Shown here: piece by piece, positions 49,802-58,386 of the stretch
Position numbering within the stretch: position 1 is the stretch's first letter
Layout: each line of letters starts with the position of its first letter
Source: Cognatilysobacter tabacisoli
GTDB lineage: Bacteria; Pseudomonadota; Gammaproteobacteria; Xanthomonadales; Xanthomonadaceae
NCBI RefSeq assembly: GCF_003586305.1
Contig: NZ_KZ987400.1
Location: 530,635 to 594,634, forward strand
DNA length: 64,000 nt
Direction: 5' to 3'
Translations under genes and position numbers: made by a program
The notes under the pieces: model-generated
What the model saw: the letters and a program-made list of their open reading frames with translations, nothing else
Database searches by the model: none
What the model was told of the DNA's origin: nothing

Positions 49802-51817
49802 TCACCACGGGCGGGCGAACGCCAGCTGCCAGCGCACCGGATCGGCGGCGGCCGGAACGTGCGTCCCCTGCAGGGACCACGCCCAATCGCGCCCGAACCG
49901 GCCGAGCAGCGACCACTCCGCCCACGTGGCGTCGCGCGCCGCCGTCCAGTCGACCACGTCGAACGCCGCGCCCGGGGTGGCGACGAATCCGCCGCGCAGC
50001 GTGCCGTCGGTGCCGAGCCGCCGTTCGCGCCGGACGTCGAGGTGCAGCTCGACGCCGCGCGAACCGGCCAAGCGCCATTCGCGCACGTAGCGCACGCCGA
50101 ACGACGCGCTGGACTGCGCGATGCGCGCGCCGTCCGCGGCCAGTTCCCAGCCGGTGTCGCCGGACTCGCCGAACGCGCCGGCGTGCACGCGCGAGTGGTC
50201 CAGCCCGACGTACGGGCTCAACCCGCCGCCGGCCACGTCGAACGGCCGGCTGGCCTGCGCGTGCACGGCGGTCCAGCGCAGGTGCCGCTGCGACGCCGCC
50301 GTGCGCAGACCGGCGTCGCCAAGGTCGACCGGGCGCCGCACCAGCGCGGTCGTGTGGCCGATGGTCACCGAGCCCGTCGCCCGCCAGCTGCCGAAGCGGC
50401 GGTGCAAATAGGCGCCCGCGCTCGCGCCGGCGTCGTGCGCGCCGGCGCCCGAGACGTGCGCACCGCGCGCCATCGCGGCGCCGACCAGCCAGCCGTCGCC
50501 GAGCCAGCGGTCGCCGCCGTGCACGCGCCCGCCATCGTCGAGCGAGGCCGACCACGCACCGGCAGGTTCGCCTTCGCGTCGCCCGTCGAGCTGCGCATCG
50601 ACGCGCGCGGCCAGCCGCGCCGCGGCGCGATGCGCATCGTGCTGGAGCCGCGCATGCGCGGCGCCGCCGAGGCTTTCCAGCCGACGCGCCGCGCGCGCGG
50701 GATCGGACTCCATCAGCAGGTCGGTGCTCGCCGCCACGAAGCGCCGCCGGGCGGCGTTCGTCGCCGCGGCCGGGTCGAAGCGGTCGGCCACCTCGAGCGC
50801 GCGGTCGACCGCGCCCGCGCCGGCCTGCGCCGCCGGGGTCGCCTGGGCGCTCGACGCGATGGCGCTCTGCATCGACAGCCGGGTCATGTCGAGCCACACG
50901 TCGTTCGGTCCGTAGCGCAGGCCGCCTTCGATGAAGAGCCCCGGCGACGTCCACTGCGCGAACCGGCCGAACACGCCACCGTCGGCGTGCAGGATCTGCG
51001 CGCTGTACGGCGCCGCGGGCAGCGGATAGCCCTCGCCCCAGCCGTCGACGAAGCTGCGGACGATCAGCGTGCCTGCCAGATGCGCCTCGCCGTTCACCTG
51101 CAGGGTGCTGACGTCGCGGGCCAGGCCGTACGGGTCGACCATCAGGGTGACCACCAGCGCGCCGGTCGGCGACTGGCGGAAATTGCTCTGCAGGGTGGGG
51201 AGCGGTACGTCGCGCTCGGTCACGCCGACTTCCAGCTGGCCGTCGTTGTCGAAATCGCCAGCGACCTGGCCGAACAACCGCAGCGCACCGAGGTTGGCCA
51301 CCTCGCCCATGACGACGCCGGCGATCGACGCATAGCCGCGGTTGATCAGCGTGCCGCGGATCATCCCATCGGGGGCGGCCCCCCGCAGTCCGCCGCCGAG
51401 CGACAGGTACCCGTCCGGCCCCACCTCCACCAGCGGCGACGACAGCGTGTTGCCGGCGCGGATCGACAGCGAACCCAGTTCGACCGCGGTGCGGCTGAAC
51501 GTGTACGTGCCCCAGCCCAGCGTGGTGTCCAAGCTGGGATCGTCGCGCCCAAGGACCAGCTCCCGGTACTGCCCGCGCACGATCAGCGCATGGCCGCTGG
51601 TCCGACCTCCGAGCATGATCGCGTTGTCGCTCACCACGCAGTCGGCCAGCACCGGCGGCGGGCACGGACCGATCGGGGCCGCGGCCGGGGGCGGCGGTGG
51701 CGGAAGTGCCGGCGGCGGGGTCGGGGCGCGCACGTTGTCGCCGCCACCGCCCGAGCCGCAGGCGGGCAGCAGGCAGGCGACGGCGGCGGTCAGCAGGGTG
51801 ATCGAAGGCGTGCGCAT
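49802..51817 (-). CDS. Autotransporter-like protein with lipoprotein signal (1)
   Basis: 671 residues from ATG 51817 (CAGGAG upstream). The signal ends in LLPACGSGGGGDN, a lipobox with Cys about 20 followed by a Gly and then a Pro-rich linker. A beta-rich passenger (about 55-330) with repeats of the type GTLINRGYASIAG follows, then an Ala-rich helical linker (about 340-410) and a C-terminal beta barrel of about 260 residues ending in ...WQLAFARPW, a typical terminal aromatic. No protease or other enzymatic motif is visible. Closely related to the neighbouring gene; expected to be anchored by lipid at one end and by the barrel at the other. Confidence 0.8.
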   Translation of the reverse strand: MRTPSITLLTAAVACLLPACGSGGGGDNVRAPTPPPALPPPPPPAAAPIGPCPPPVLADCVVSDNAIMLGGRTSGHALIVRGQYRELVLGRDDPSLDTTLGWGTYTFSRTAVELGSLSIRAGNTLSSPLVEVGPDGYLSLGGGLRGAAPDGMIRGTLINRGYASIAGVVMGEVANLGALRLFGQVAGDFDNDGQLEVGVTERDVPLPTLQSNFRQSPTGALVVTLMVDPYGLARDVSTLQVNGEAHLAGTLIVRSFVDGWGEGYPLPAAPYSAQILHADGGVFGRFAQWTSPGLFIEGGLRYGPNDVWLDMTRLSMQSAIASSAQATPAAQAGAGAVDRALEVADRFDPAAATNAARRRFVAASTDLLMESDPARAARRLESLGGAAHARLQHDAHRAAARLAARVDAQLDGRREGEPAGAWSASLDDGGRVHGGDRWLGDGWLVGAAMARGAHVSGAGAHDAGASAGAYLHRRFGSWRATGSVTIGHTTALVRRPVDLGDAGLRTAASQRHLRWTAVHAQASRPFDVAGGGLSPYVGLDHSRVHAGAFGESGDTGWELAADGARIAQSSASFGVRYVREWRLAGSRGVELHLDVRRERRLGTDGTLRGGFVATPGAAFDVVDWTAARDATWAEWSLLGRFGRDWAWSLQGTHVPAAADPVRWQLAFARPW

Positions 51818-51911
51818 GGCGTAGCTCCTGTACGGAGGGGCCGGCCGGGCCGGCAGGAACGGGAGGAGGGGCGTGTGGGTCGGGCCGGCACAGGGGCGCG
51901 GGTGCGTTCGG

Positions 51912-53852
51912 TCAGAACCGGCGACGCACGAACAGTGACCAGCCCGCATCCGGCGCCCCGGTCGCGCCGCCGTCGCGGTAGTCCATCGCCCACTGCCAGC
52001 CCGACGGAAACCGACCGGTCAGGCCGGCGGCGACGTACCCGGCCCCGGGCGAAGCCGGGCCGGCGTCCAGCGCGAACGTCGCATCCGGCGTGCCGGTGAA
52101 CGCGGCCCGGGCGGCAGCGCCGTCTGCGTCGAGCCGCATCCGGTACCGCGCGTCGACCGACACGCCGACCAGGGCGGCGCCCACCGGCCATTCGCGCGCG
52201 AACCGCGCGCCGGCCGACAGCGCGAACTCGCGCGTGTGCCCGTCTCCGGTGGCGAGTTCGAGGCCGGTGGCGCCGTCTTCGACGAAGCGCCCGGCGCGCA
52301 CGGCGCTGTAGTCGACCGCCACGTACGGCGTCCATGCGCCCGCGCCGAACGGCACGCGCCGGCCCGCTTCCGCGCGGACGTACGCGTGCGACAGCGGGCG
52401 GCGCGCGGTCGCCACATGCACCCCGGCGTCGCCGAGGTCGATCGTGCGCGACGTCGTCAGCGCTGCGCGGCCGTGTCCAGCCTGCACCGTGAGATGCCGT
52501 CCGCCGTCGCGGCGGTGGGCGAACACGCCGCCGGCGACAGCGCGTCCGTGGGCGCGCCCGCCCATCGCGTCGAACCCGACCGTGGCGTCGCCGGCGGCGA
52601 CGTGGGCGCCCACCAGCCAGCGACGATCGAGCCAGTGCGCGCTGCCCGCGGTCGTGCCGTCCAGCGACGCGCCGCCAGCGGTCGCGGCGCGCAGCGCGGT
52701 GGGCTCGGCCCACGCATGCGTGCGCGCGTCGGCCGGGACGGCGGCCAGGCGGGCGTCCAGCTGCCCCGCGGCGTGGATCGCCTGCCGACGCAGCGCATCG
52801 CCGAGCAGGGCCTGTCCCTGGCCCGACAGGCTCGACAGGCTGCGCTCGGCCTGGTGGCGGTCGCGGATGTGCTGCAGCGACGCGGCCGACGCGAGGAAGT
52901 GCCGCTGCGACGGCGCGAGCCGATCGGCCGGAGACCCGGCGAACCGGTCGGCGTGCGCGAACGCCGCGTCCAGCCGCGCGGCCGACGCGCGCGCCGCGGG
53001 CGAGGCCTGTGCGCTGGCCATCGCCGCCGCCAGCGAGATCCGGGTCGCGTCGAAGTAGACGTCCTGCGCGGTGTAGCGCAGCGTGCCGTCGAGGAACAGG
53101 CCGCTGCTGCGCCAGCCGTCGAACGCGCCGCTGATTCCGCCGTCCGCGCGCAGCACCAGCACGCTCGACGGCGCCGTCGGCAGCACGTAGCCCTGCGACC
53201 GCGCGCCCATCAGGATCAGCTGGCCGTCGAGCGCCGCGGTGCCGGTGACCTGCAGCTCCCAGCCGAGCACCGCCTCGAGCGTTCCGGTCGGCGCCTGGAT
53301 GTAGTTGCCTTCGATCCGGCTGCGCTGCGGCTGCACGCAGAAGGTGATGCCGGTGCCGCACGTGTGGTGGAGCGTCACCCGGTCCTCATTGAGCACGTTG
53401 CCGCGCACGGTGCCGGCCAGCCACAGCTCGCTGGGGCCGAATCCCAGTCCGGTGGGGTCGTACTGCACGTGCACGTTCGACACCAGGGTGTCGTGGACGA
53501 CGAGGCCCGCGCCCGCGATCTGGGTGCCGCCGGAAAACCGGTACTCGCCGCCGAACAGGTTCAGCCACCCGCCGTCGCCGGCCACCACCAGGCGGAAATC
53601 ACTCTGCCGCCCACCGGTCATCCGGAACTCGTCCCACGTCGGCGTGTACCTGACCGGGACGACGCAGTCCGCCACCACCGGGCTCGGGCACGGCTCCGCC
53701 GGTGCGCCGCCGGGCGGCGGAGGCGGTGGCGTGGGGGGCGGCGGAGCAGGCGGGGGGTCGTTGCGGACCAGGCCGCCCCCGCCGCCCCCGCCGCCGCAGG
53801 CCGAAAGGCTCAAGCACAGCGCGCACAGCACCGCGATCGATGAACGTTTCAT
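51912..53852 (-). CDS. Autotransporter-like protein with lipoprotein signal (2)
   Basis: 646 residues from ATG 53852. Lipobox LSLSACGGGG (Cys about 19), an eight-Gly run and a Pro-rich linker, then a beta-rich passenger of about 230 residues with a Cys pair (TCGTGITFC), a helical linker and a C-terminal barrel ending GWSLFVRRRF. Paralogue of the following gene, 94 bp downstream. First gene of the three-gene operon with the TonB receptor. The CTGAAA array lies 81 bp upstream. Confidence 0.8.
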   Translation of the reverse strand: MKRSSIAVLCALCLSLSACGGGGGGGGLVRNDPPPAPPPPTPPPPPPGGAPAEPCPSPVVADCVVPVRYTPTWDEFRMTGGRQSDFRLVVAGDGGWLNLFGGEYRFSGGTQIAGAGLVVHDTLVSNVHVQYDPTGLGFGPSELWLAGTVRGNVLNEDRVTLHHTCGTGITFCVQPQRSRIEGNYIQAPTGTLEAVLGWELQVTGTAALDGQLILMGARSQGYVLPTAPSSVLVLRADGGISGAFDGWRSSGLFLDGTLRYTAQDVYFDATRISLAAAMASAQASPAARASAARLDAAFAHADRFAGSPADRLAPSQRHFLASAASLQHIRDRHQAERSLSSLSGQGQALLGDALRRQAIHAAGQLDARLAAVPADARTHAWAEPTALRAATAGGASLDGTTAGSAHWLDRRWLVGAHVAAGDATVGFDAMGGRAHGRAVAGGVFAHRRDGGRHLTVQAGHGRAALTTSRTIDLGDAGVHVATARRPLSHAYVRAEAGRRVPFGAGAWTPYVAVDYSAVRAGRFVEDGATGLELATGDGHTREFALSAGARFAREWPVGAALVGVSVDARYRMRLDADGAAARAAFTGTPDATFALDAGPASPGAGYVAAGLTGRFPSGWQWAMDYRDGGATGAPDAGWSLFVRRRF

Positions 53853-54146: not shown

Positions 54147-54175
54147 TTGACTTCACCCGGAGCCGGGCGTAGTTT
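54147..54175 (+). promoter_or_regulatory. Promoter of nrdJa
   Basis: TTGACT (54147-54152), a 17-bp spacer and TAGTTT (54170-54175). This is the best sigma-70 match in the window. Transcription would start near 54182, exactly at the first base of the structured leader. Confidence 0.6.
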
Positions 54176-54183
54176 CAGTCTCC

Positions 54184-54300
54184 GCCCCCGCCACAAGATG
54201 TAGTGGTTACTGGCGGGAGAAGCCCAAGCGAAAGGGTTCTCAGGCTTGGGACGTGTGGAACGTACAGCCACCGCTGGGGAGCGGTGGGGGGACGGGAGCT
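54184..54300 (+). ncRNA. Structured leader RNA of the class II RNR operon (nrdJ-motif candidate)
   Basis: Directly after the predicted transcription start come three hairpins: CCCGCCA (54187-54193) with TGGCGGG (54211-54217); CCCAAGC (54223-54229) with GCTTGGG (54244-54250); CCACCGCT (54268-54275), GGGG loop, AGCGGTGG (54280-54287). Single-stranded purine-rich joints (GAGAAG, GAAAGGGTTCTCAG, GACGTGTGGAACGTA) lie between. A conserved RNA called the nrdJ motif has been described upstream of nrdJ genes in Proteobacteria; this leader has the right place and size, but I could not test it against the model. The 150 bases from here to the start codon are unstructured to my eye. Confidence 0.55.
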
Positions 54301-54453
54301 GACACGACCACAAGCGGATAAAAACACGATGCCACGCGACGCGAACACGCGGACGCGGGCACGGCCGTCGGCGGGATTCACGCCGGCGGCGTCCAACCAG
54401 AACACACTCGGTCGCGGCCCGTCCCCGACCGGAACTACGGAGACAGGTCAGGC

Positions 54454-56622
54454 ATGAGCACGGTGCGCCTCGAGGCGGTGAAGATGACGACGGTCGAGCA
54501 GGCCCGGCCTGACGGAGACATCCCGATGCAGCCGGCGTCCCAGGACATCTGGGACAAGAAGTACCGGCTCAAGACCAAGTCGGGCGAGGCGGTCGACGCC
54601 GACATCGATGCCACCTACCAGCGCGTCGCCAAGGCCCTGGCCGAGGCCGAGCCGACCGCCGAGACGCAGCAGTACTGGCACGAGCGCTTCACCTGGGCGC
54701 TGCGCCGCGGCGCGATCCCCGCCGGCCGCATCACCTCCAATGCCGGCGCGCTCGAGCACAAGCCGGCCACCAGCACGATCAACTGCACCGTCAGTGGCAC
54801 CATCGAGGACTCGATGGACGGCATCCTCGAGAAGGTCCACGAGGCCGGCCTGACCCTGAAGGCCGGCTGCGGCATCGGCTACGAGTTCTCGACGCTGCGC
54901 CCGCGCGGCGCGTTCGTCGCCGGCGCCGGTGCGTACACGTCCGGCCCGATGTCCTTCATGGATATCTACGACAAGATGTGCTTCACCGTGTCGTCGGCCG
55001 GCGGCCGCCGCGGCGCGCAGATGGGCACGTTCGACGTGTCGCACCCGGACGTGAAGGACTTCATCCGCGCCAAGCGCGAGGACGGCCGGCTGCGCCAGTT
55101 CAACCTGTCGCTGCTGATCACGGACGGCTTCATGGACGCGGTCAAGACCGACGCCGACTGGCCGCTGGTGTTCCCGGTCAACGAGAAGGAGCGCGGCGAC
55201 ATCAACCTCGCCGACCCGGCGCAGGTCGTGTGGCGCGAGTGGCCGACCCACCGCAACTACATCACCCGCGACGACGGCCTGGTCGCCTGCAAGATCTACG
55301 GCCACATCCGCGCGCGGCACCTGTGGGACATGATCATGGTCTCGACGTACGACTACGCCGAGCCGGGCTTCATCCTGATCGACCGCGTCAACGAGATGAA
55401 CAACAACTGGTGGTGCGAGACGATCCGCGCCACCAACCCCTGCGGCGAGCAGCCGCTGCCGCCGTACGGCGCCTGCCTGCTCGGCTCGGTCAACCTGACC
55501 AAGTTCGTGCGCAACCCGTTCACCGACCAGGCGCAGTTCGACTGGGAGGAATACAAGGAAGTCGTGCGCGTGTTCACCCGCATGCTCGACAACGTGGTCG
55601 AGGTCAACGGGCTGCCGCTGCAGCAGCAGCGCGACGAGATCATGCGCAAGCGCCGCCACGGCATGGGCTTCCTCGGCCTGGGCAGCACGGTGACGATGCT
55701 GAAGATGAAGTACGGCTCCAAGGAGTCGTGCGAGTTCACCGAGCGCGTCGCCCGCGAGATGGCCGTCGCCGGCTGGGAGATGGGCCTGGCGCTGGCCAAG
55801 GAGAAGGGCGCCGCCCCGATCATGGCCGAGCGTTTCGAGGTCACCGCCGAGATGCTGCGCAAGCGCCCGGAGATGAAGAAGGACGGCTGGAAGGTCGGCC
55901 AGCAGATCGAAGGCCGCGTCCTGCACGCCAGGTACAGCCGCTACATGCAGCGCGTGGCCGAGGTTGCCCCGGAGCTGGTCGCCGAGCTGGCCGAGGTCGG
56001 CGCGCGCTTCACCCACCACAGCTCGATCGCCCCGACCGGCACCATCAGCCTGTCGCTGGCCAACAACGCCTCCAACGGCATCGAGCCGTCGTTCGCGCAC
56101 CACTACAGCCGCAACGTGATCCGCGAAGGCAAGAAGTCCAAGGAAAAGGTCGACGTCTACTCGTTCGAGCTGCTGGCCTACCGCGAGCTGGTCAACGCCA
56201 AGGCGATGCCGTTCAGCGACGAGCCCGACGCGAAGCTGCCCGACTACTTCATCTCCGCCGACGACATCTCGCCGAAGGAGCACGTCGACGTGCAGGCCGC
56301 GGCGCAGAAGTGGGTCGACAGCTCGATCTCCAAGACCGCCAACGTCCCGACCGATTACCCGTACGAGGACTTCAAGGACATCTACCGCTACGCCCACGAG
56401 CAGGGCCTCAAGGGCTGCACCACGTTCCGCTTCAACCCGGCCGCCTTCCAGGGCGTGCTGGTCAAGGAAGCGGACCTGGAGAACACGACCTACCGCTTCG
56501 AGCTCGAGGACGGCAGCGTGGTCGAGGTCAAGGGCAACGAGCAGATCGAATACGACGGCGAGATGCACAGCGCCGCCAACCTGTTCGACGCGCTGAAGGA
56601 AGGCTATTACGGCAAGTTCTGA
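54454..56622 (+). CDS. nrdJ: Adenosylcobalamin-dependent ribonucleotide reductase, catalytic part (NrdJa)
   Basis: 722 residues of class II RNR, which makes deoxyribonucleotides using a B12 radical and no oxygen. The radical site is Asn328-Pro-Cys330-Gly-Glu332; Cys330 is the thiyl cysteine. Cys111 (TINCTVSG) and Cys341 (GACLLGSVNL, 11 after Cys330 as in the Lactobacillus enzyme) form the redox pair. The protein ends near LKEGYYGKF, without the C-terminal cysteine module; that part is encoded separately by the nrdJb gene at 57607. An in-frame ATG at 54484 is an alternative start. Confidence 0.95.
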   Translation: MSTVRLEAVKMTTVEQARPDGDIPMQPASQDIWDKKYRLKTKSGEAVDADIDATYQRVAKALAEAEPTAETQQYWHERFTWALRRGAIPAGRITSNAGALEHKPATSTINCTVSGTIEDSMDGILEKVHEAGLTLKAGCGIGYEFSTLRPRGAFVAGAGAYTSGPMSFMDIYDKMCFTVSSAGGRRGAQMGTFDVSHPDVKDFIRAKREDGRLRQFNLSLLITDGFMDAVKTDADWPLVFPVNEKERGDINLADPAQVVWREWPTHRNYITRDDGLVACKIYGHIRARHLWDMIMVSTYDYAEPGFILIDRVNEMNNNWWCETIRATNPCGEQPLPPYGACLLGSVNLTKFVRNPFTDQAQFDWEEYKEVVRVFTRMLDNVVEVNGLPLQQQRDEIMRKRRHGMGFLGLGSTVTMLKMKYGSKESCEFTERVAREMAVAGWEMGLALAKEKGAAPIMAERFEVTAEMLRKRPEMKKDGWKVGQQIEGRVLHARYSRYMQRVAEVAPELVAELAEVGARFTHHSSIAPTGTISLSLANNASNGIEPSFAHHYSRNVIREGKKSKEKVDVYSFELLAYRELVNAKAMPFSDEPDAKLPDYFISADDISPKEHVDVQAAAQKWVDSSISKTANVPTDYPYEDFKDIYRYAHEQGLKGCTTFRFNPAAFQGVLVKEADLENTTYRFELEDGSVVEVKGNEQIEYDGEMHSAANLFDALKEGYYGKF

Positions 56623-56786
56623 TCGTCGCGGTGCCGGCCGCGCGTAACGCGCGGCGGCGGCGATCGCGGCATCGGGTGCGCTCGCGGTGCAACGCGCGCG
56701 CACCCCGGACGAGGCGACCGCATCGCCTCGCGCGCAGACCGGGCCGGTTGCGTCGCGAGTGTCCAGGCCCCGCGCGATCGGCGTCG

Positions 56787-56817
56787 TTGACGGCATTGCG
56801 CGCGCTGCAGGTATAGC
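56787..56817 (+). promoter_or_regulatory. Candidate promoter of the histone H1-like gene
   Basis: TTGACG (56787-56792) and TATAGC (56812-56817) with a 19-bp spacer, 67 bp before the ATG. Spacing is a little long. Confidence 0.4.
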
Positions 56818-56884
56818 ATCGCCCCGTGGAGCGCCATCCCGGTGTTCCCGCCCCGATTACACAAGCACATCCGACGAGGTCCAC

Positions 56885-57490
56885 ATGAGCAACGGTAATG
56901 GAGTGACGGCGACCCTGACGCAGGCCGCCGACAGCGTGAAAGAAACCGCCAGCAACATCGGCAGCGCGATCGCCCATGGCGCCGAAGGCGCGGTCAAGAC
57001 GGTCAAGAAGACCGCGACCAAGGCCCGCAAGGCCGCGAAGAAGGCCGTCGGCACGGCGAAGAAGAAGCTCGCCAGCGCCAGCGCCGCCGCCAAGAAGGAA
57101 GCCGCTTCGCTGACGAAGAAGACCACCAAGAAGTCGACCAAGAAGACCGCGAAGAAGGCCACCAAGAAGGCCGCCAAGAAGTCGACCGCGCGCAAGCCGG
57201 CCGCCAAGAAGGCCGCGGCGAAGAAGGCGACGAAGAAGACGGCGAAGAAGGCCACGAAGAAAGCCGCCGCCAAGAAGACGGTGAAGAAGGCCGCCAAGAA
57301 GGTCGCGAAGAAGGCGACCGCCGCCAAGAAGGCAGTGAAGAAGGCCGCCAAGAAGGCGACCCGCAAGGCCCCGGCGAAGAAGGCCTCGGCCCGCAAGGCC
57401 CCGGCCAAGAAGGCGCCCGCCAAGAAGGCAATGAAGAAGACCGCCAAGCGTCCTGCAAAGAAGGCCGCGAAGAAGGCGTCGAAGCGGTAA
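56885..57490 (+). CDS. Histone H1-like / AlgP-type lysine-alanine-rich DNA-binding protein
   Basis: 201 residues. The first 50 form an amphipathic helix; the rest (about 50-201) is a lysine/alanine repeat built on KKATKKAAKK- and PAKKA-type units, as in eukaryotic H1 tails and Pseudomonas AlgP or Bordetella BpH1. It should bind and compact DNA without sequence specificity. The repeats make the gene prone to length change. It lies between the two RNR genes on the same strand, with its own likely promoter. A 12-bp hairpin follows its stop. Confidence 0.88.
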   Translation: MSNGNGVTATLTQAADSVKETASNIGSAIAHGAEGAVKTVKKTATKARKAAKKAVGTAKKKLASASAAAKKEAASLTKKTTKKSTKKTAKKATKKAAKKSTARKPAAKKAAAKKATKKTAKKATKKAAAKKTVKKAAKKVAKKATAAKKAVKKAAKKATRKAPAKKASARKAPAKKAPAKKAMKKTAKRPAKKAAKKASKR

Positions 57491-57606: not shown

Positions 57607-58386
57607 ATGGCCGTCAAGATCGAAAAGAAAATCAAGGGTTACGCCGTCCTCACCCCCGAGGACCGCGCCAAGGAAGCCGCCAAGGTCGAGACCGCCGCCG
57701 CGCCCGCCGCCGAGCCCAAGGCGACCGCCGACGTCATCCAGATGCACGAGCGCGTCGAGCGCCCGGAAGTGCTGATCGGCTCCACCTACAAGATCAAGAC
57801 GCCGTTGGCCGAGCACGCCATGTACGTGACGATCAACGACATCGTGCTGAACCCCGGCACGGAGCACGAGCTGCGCCGCCCGTTCGAGGTGTTCATCAAT
57901 TCCAAGAACATGGACCACTTCCAGTGGATCGTCGGCCTGACCCGGATCATGTCGGCCGTGTTCCGCAAGGGCGGCGACGTGACCTTCCTGGTCGACGAGA
58001 TGAAGGCCGTGTTCGACCCGAAGGGCGGCTACTTCAAGGCCGGCGGCGTGTACATGCCGTCGCTGGTCGCCGAGATCGGCGCGGTGGTCGAGGACCACCT
58101 GAAGTCGATCGGCATGATCCACGACCCGGAGATGAGCCCCGCCCAGCGCGCGCTCATCGCCGAGAAGCGCGCCGCGTACGAGCAGCGCTCAAAAAAAAAC
58201 TCTGACGTAGTCGCCGCGCCCGCCGACCAGGTCGGCGCGCAGGGCACCGAGGACGTCGCGGTCACCGGCGACGGCGCGTCGTTCCCGCCGTCGGCGTCGA
58301 TGTGCCACAAGTGCAGCACCAAGGCTGTGGTGATCATGGATGGGTGTGCGACTTGCTTGAACTGTGGGTATAGCAAGTGCGGTTGA
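57607..58386 (+). CDS. nrdJb: Class II RNR C-terminal partner NrdJb
   Basis: 259 residues. The central part (about 60-185) matches the C-terminal domain of class II RNR (TSCPD-like; PFEVFINSKNMDHFQWIVGLTRIMSAVFRKGGD); the end carries three Cys-x-x-Cys pairs (MCHKC, GCATC, NCGYSKC), where the shuttle cysteines re-reduce the active site. In Pseudomonas and Xanthomonas relatives the enzyme is likewise made from two genes. An A9 run (58191-58199) sits in the hinge between the two parts; slippage there would delete the Cys end. Codons after it are less GC-rich than elsewhere. A strong terminator follows. Confidence 0.9.
   Translation: MAVKIEKKIKGYAVLTPEDRAKEAAKVETAAAPAAEPKATADVIQMHERVERPEVLIGSTYKIKTPLAEHAMYVTINDIVLNPGTEHELRRPFEVFINSKNMDHFQWIVGLTRIMSAVFRKGGDVTFLVDEMKAVFDPKGGYFKAGGVYMPSLVAEIGAVVEDHLKSIGMIHDPEMSPAQRALIAEKRAAYEQRSKKNSDVVAAPADQVGAQGTEDVAVTGDGASFPPSASMCHKCSTKAVVIMDGCATCLNCGYSKCG

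Follow-up and report, generated by a model that had tools for sequence, protein, structure and literature searches.

A predicted tandem NrdR operator, rather than a riboswitch, in the leader of nrdJ in Cognatilysobacter tabacisoli

The nrdJ gene of Cognatilysobacter tabacisoli, which encodes an adenosylcobalamin-dependent (class II) ribonucleotide reductase, is preceded by a long, structured leader, and this raises the question of whether the gene is controlled by an RNA that senses a ligand or by a different kind of switch. In the window, meaning the whole 64,000-nt stretch of DNA that was analysed, nrdJ lies at 54454..56622 on the plus strand, and its 722-aa product matched TIGR02504 at 589.7 bits (cut-off 399.95) as well as PF02867. 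The TSCPD part is encoded apart, by a plus-strand gene at 57607..58386 for an NrdJb-like C-terminal reductase part (PF12637, and NF006417 matched in part, at its C-terminus), so that the class II reductase appears to be split into two chains. A Lys/Ala-rich, histone-H1-like frame at 56687-57490, without a family match, lies between the two genes. On the minus strand, two adjacent autotransporter-like frames (51912-53852 and 49802-51949) both begin with a lipoprotein-like ACG(G/S)GGG motif, and the first carries a Pfam autotransporter beta-domain.

The promoter named in an earlier, sequence-only reading of this DNA was found on the plus strand, with a -35 element TTGACT (54147..54152) and a -10 element TAGTTT (54170..54175) separated by a 17-bp spacer, and its position predicts a transcription start at about 54182, as that reading had proposed. 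TTGAC and TAGnTT recurred at the equivalent sites in relatives, whose nrdJ promoters mostly had the layout TTGAC-N17-TAGnTT. A generic sigma-70 scan did not pick up the promoter because the -10 element matches at only three of six positions. A Shine-Dalgarno sequence, GGAG, lies at 54439..54442 on the same strand.

We searched the locus for known RNA families. No Rfam family matched at gathering score anywhere in the 64,000-nt window, only chance matches appeared on the nrdJ leader at E up to 10, and the nrdJ loci of 20 relatives gave no family match. The sequence-only reading had noted that the position of the leader fits the published nrdJ RNA motif. This motif is RF03034 and has been described in Streptomyces (PMC8079986, PMC8388888). 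Its location before nrdJ is the one likeness that speaks for membership; neither sequence nor structure matches. At the RF03034 cut-off of 40.3 bits, nothing was found in 40 genomes (this one and 39 relatives), and the best sub-threshold match in this genome was on another contig, at C1:1592102. Together with the lack of a gathering-score match in the window or at the 20 relatives' loci, these results refute the likeness at the curated threshold, and we regard membership of RF03034 as almost certainly wrong. The cobalamin riboswitch model RF00174 (cut-off 31.5 bits) gave no match at the nrdJ leader even at E 10, in agreement with the earlier reading, which had not found the cobalamin riboswitch consensus. 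Thus the covariance search with the nrdJ and cobalamin models, which had been suggested as a check, matched neither model.

The three perfect hairpins reported before (7, 7 and 8 bp) were present at their positions on the plus strand. Hairpin 1, or P1 (54182..54217), pairs CCCGCCA (54187-54193) with TGGCGGG (54211-54217) over 7 bp and has an alternative core pairing, CCGCC/GGCGG; hairpin 2 (54223..54250) pairs CCCAAGC (54223-54229) with GCTTGGG (54244-54250) over 7 bp; and hairpin 3 (54268..54287) pairs CCACCGCT (54268-54275) with AGCGGTGG (54280-54287) over 8 bp around a GGGG loop. The earlier reading had not noticed DNA palindromes of 16 bp that belong to the NrdR-box type: hairpin 1 encloses one, and hairpin 2 overlaps one. 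Box 1, CCACAAGATGTAGTGG, a palindromic operator half at 54191..54206 on the plus strand, is flanked by the arms of P1, and it agrees with the NrdR box consensus acaCwAtATaTwGtg (PMC4009431), scoring 18 of 22 consensus points with all core C-W-A...T-W-G positions retained. Box 2, GCCCAAGCGAAAGGGT, at 54222..54237 on the same strand, is degenerate, a weak match of 14 of 22 points, and the left arm of hairpin 2 is its left half. The boxes are 31 bp apart, which corresponds to a 15-bp spacer; tandem NrdR boxes spaced 31-32 bp have been described (PMC2892513), and spacers of 15-17 bp, which set the box centres three helix turns apart, gave the best NrdR binding in vitro and repression in E. coli (PMC12051234).

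We then compared these boxes across the nrdJ leaders of Lysobacteraceae and their relatives, drawn from 80 named loci, another 30 loci and 60 upstream stretches (170 examined, 149 non-redundant). Box 1 was found at the same post-promoter position in 170/170 leaders, a count that is slightly circular, since the search pattern for the boxes was itself degenerate and tolerated two mismatches. Its core, CxCACWAnATnTWGnG, was essentially invariant among the 149 non-redundant leaders. The best offset of the second box was 31, 32 or 33 bp in 141/149, that is, a 15-17 bp spacer, and its mean consensus score was 13.7 at offsets 30-34, compared with 8.3 and 7.5 at offsets used as controls. Within the window, box 1 scored 28.8 bits and the runner-up site 2.0 bits, a margin of 26 bits, and CACWANATNTWGYG had its sole exact match in the 3.12-Mb genome at the box 1 site. 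A near-match to box 1 at C2:859930 was discarded, as it sits within a queE-like frame. In three very short leaders (L054, 88 nt; L058, 101 nt; L067, 100 nt), the promoter and boxes persist and most of the leader is gone.

The genome also encodes NrdR, in a gene adjoining glyA (TIGR00244, 194.4 bits). Read from its open reading frame, the protein retains C3, C6, R12, D15, R17, R26-R29, C31, C34 and R37, so that all the DNA-contact residues and the four zinc cysteines named for NrdR (PMC9110341, PMC12176259) are present. In the presence of dATP plus ATP, NrdR binds and kinks DNA (PMC9110341), and in P. aeruginosa NrdR represses nrdJ, a repression that is relieved by mutating the box (PMC4409342).

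These findings indicate that the conserved element before nrdJ is very probably a tandem NrdR operator of the nrdJ promoter and not a riboswitch, and that what is conserved most strongly in the leader is a predicted operator, a DNA site for the NrdR protein. The arrangement is like that of known NrdR operators (the consensus of Rodionov and Gelfand 2005, S. coelicolor nrdRJ and P. aeruginosa nrdJa) in its tandem 16-bp palindromic boxes with a 15-17 bp spacer, in their position at a class II reductase promoter and in the presence of NrdR in the genome. It differs from them in the placement of both boxes downstream of the -10 element (about +10 to +56), in the degeneracy of box 2 and in the pairing arms on either side of box 1. 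The degenerate box 2 counts against the operator, which also leaves unexplained both the covarying arms around box 1 and the excess folding of the remaining leader: the whole 272-nt RNA (54182-54453) folded with a z of -4.91, equalled by 0/200 shuffles, whereas the first 109 nt (54182-54290; -48.4 kcal/mol) reached a z of -2.13, equalled by 5/200.

By analogy with other bacteria, NrdR would bind the nrdJ promoter, repress it and respond to nucleotides there. The two 16-bp boxes, 15 bp apart and spanning transcript positions of about +10 to +56, would form the operator; as dATP rises relative to ATP, an NrdR tetramer would bridge both boxes and bend the DNA, blocking nrdJ transcription, and as dATP falls, NrdR would release the boxes. 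The conserved boxes, the NrdR gene and tandem boxes before nrdAB together make dATP/ATP the most likely signal, with a DNA-bound protein as its sensor. The sequence-only reading had left room for control by another signal; the nucleotide part of that proposal is likely to hold, and control by an RNA aptamer is not supported. A known protein-DNA switch would thus take the place of the riboswitch guess for nrdJ. Because transcribed palindromic operators resemble hairpins, anyone who finds conserved 5'-terminal hairpins should compare them with the consensus of operators before proposing an RNA switch.

The B12-independent (class Ia) reductase genes nrdAB carry AACCTACATTTCGTGT and CCCCACTATGTTGTGG exactly 32 bp apart in their promoter (locus L198, 1643-1658 and 1675-1690), where the tandem boxes overlap the -35 and -10 elements. 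A cobalamin riboswitch (RF00174, E 1.9e-24) precedes nrdAB at L198 1678-1917, equivalent to G000:C1:1670677-1670916, and the second box, at 1675-1690, overlaps the start of this match as well as the -10 element. Among 30 relatives with this nrdA, 27 had an RF00174 match no more than about 1 kb upstream of that gene; G018, G040 and G042 did not, and G018 also lacked an nrdJ match. RF00174 was not seen adjoining nrdJ wherever coordinates were compared. Another cobalamin riboswitch in the genome lies at G000:C2:836861-837100 (76.6 bits). In Streptomyces, B12 turns down the reductase that does not need it, through control of nrdABS. A similar scheme may apply here: NrdR would act on the nrdAB promoter too, through its tandem sites, nrdAB would additionally be under the cobalamin riboswitch, and B12 would turn down the B12-independent reductase only. 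With NrdR sites at both operons and the riboswitch at nrdAB alone, dATP would govern both reductases and B12 only nrdAB, which is the likely scheme of their coordination.

A divergent cobalamin-sensing riboswitch, or one for another ligand, might still be proposed before nrdJ, as NrdJ needs B12 and the leader is long and structured. However, the RF00174 model that is silent here finds a 98.9-bit aptamer before nrdAB in the same genome, where it is tied to the choice of reductase; apart from the NrdR boxes, no invariant loop nucleotides were found as far as +60 from box 1; and stems 2 and 3 had no general covariation. We consider such a riboswitch very unlikely.

Stem 2 gave a null result when its arms were swapped with those of nearest relatives. 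For stem 3, hints of similar hairpins with compensatory-looking changes were confined to Lysobacter relatives. Hairpins 2 and 3 probably arise as by-products, the former because box 2 is palindromic and the leader GC-rich, the latter through base composition, a reading consistent with the null swaps at stem 2 and with mean folding z values after box 1 of just -0.37 (region 28-80) and -0.17 (region 60-120). The compensatory-looking changes in stem 3 speak against it, as does the somewhat raised frequency of GGGG-loop hairpins (0.48 vs 0.30).

P1 behaved differently from stem 2 in swap tests. Comparison of pairing with its own arm and with arms of other species in 149 leaders gave z values of -7.7 to -10.3, arm swaps among 95 representatives gave -5.3 to -7.0, with controls near zero in both cases, and nearest-relative swaps gave p of about 1e-3. 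The signal was found in Lysobacteraceae-like leaders only (z -6.2 to -7.5) and was about zero in Rhodanobacteraceae-like ones. On the transcript strand, P1 had 58 G-U pairs as against 29 on the other, an asymmetry partly due to composition, and the sense-against-antisense energy comparison gave p 0.003. The stem begins at the predicted transcript end. In a fixed-column comparison of close relatives, kept pairs were no more frequent than in shifted controls, perhaps because the arms shift by indels. Since the swap tests are positive but the fixed-column test is null, we rate the covariation support for P1 as moderate, for Lysobacteraceae only. Covariation of the three stems, whose lack the sequence-only reading had named as part of its refuting condition, gave mixed results: stem 1 covaried by arm swap and not by fixed columns, stem 2 did not covary, and stem 3 gave lineage hints.

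Nearer the start codon, folding revealed a plus-strand hairpin, H6, with arms TCGGTCG/CGACCGG (54408..54432), just 5' of the Shine-Dalgarno sequence. Across leaders, the pre-SD region from -60 to -15 had a mean z of -1.53 as against -0.09 in control regions, and -1.43 compared with -0.74 at the TSCPD gene downstream; own-arm swaps of the pre-SD hairpin gave p 1e-3. Hairpin 1 and the pre-SD hairpin show modest signs of conservation as RNA. Another plus-strand hairpin absent from the earlier reading, H5 (GCCGTCGGCG/CGCCGGCGGC, 54364..54390), was seen by folding, with a related motif enriched in relatives, and its own-arm swap support was weak (p 0.03). Many relatives, in part of the family, share a GCCGTCGGCG hairpin at a similar place, roughly 100 nt upstream of the nrdJ start, and an A-rich stretch (ATAAGAA/ACAACAA) follows it.

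It is conceivable, though we think it somewhat unlikely, that besides the operator the leader is a functional cis-acting RNA composed of P1 and H6. P1 would then hold the transcribed NrdR box in a loop and protect the mRNA end, and H6 would keep the ribosome site clear of the GC-rich leader. The preference of P1 arms for their own partners in both leader sets, the roughly twofold G-U excess, the position of P1 at the predicted transcript end and the structured pre-SD region with its own-arm signal argue for this layer. It is opposed by the fixed-column result, by the missing P1 signal in Rhodanobacteraceae, by the share of composition in the G-U asymmetry and by the leaders themselves, which range from 88 to over 500 nt, some without most of the leader. 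That a fusion of operator and RNA, with box 1 inside a covarying P1 (in Lysobacteraceae) and a pre-SD hairpin, constitutes an undescribed leader RNA is a tentative proposal that we consider rather doubtful; if true, it would add post-transcriptional control of nrdJ.

In the Stenotrophomonas-like leaders L038 and L042, a small upstream ORF suspected on visual inspection was dropped, as most differences, likewise judged by eye, alter the amino acid. Elsewhere in the genome, at G000:C1:775153-775774, five copies of CACTACGTGTTGCG lie at exact 152-bp steps, which suggests a tandem repeat.
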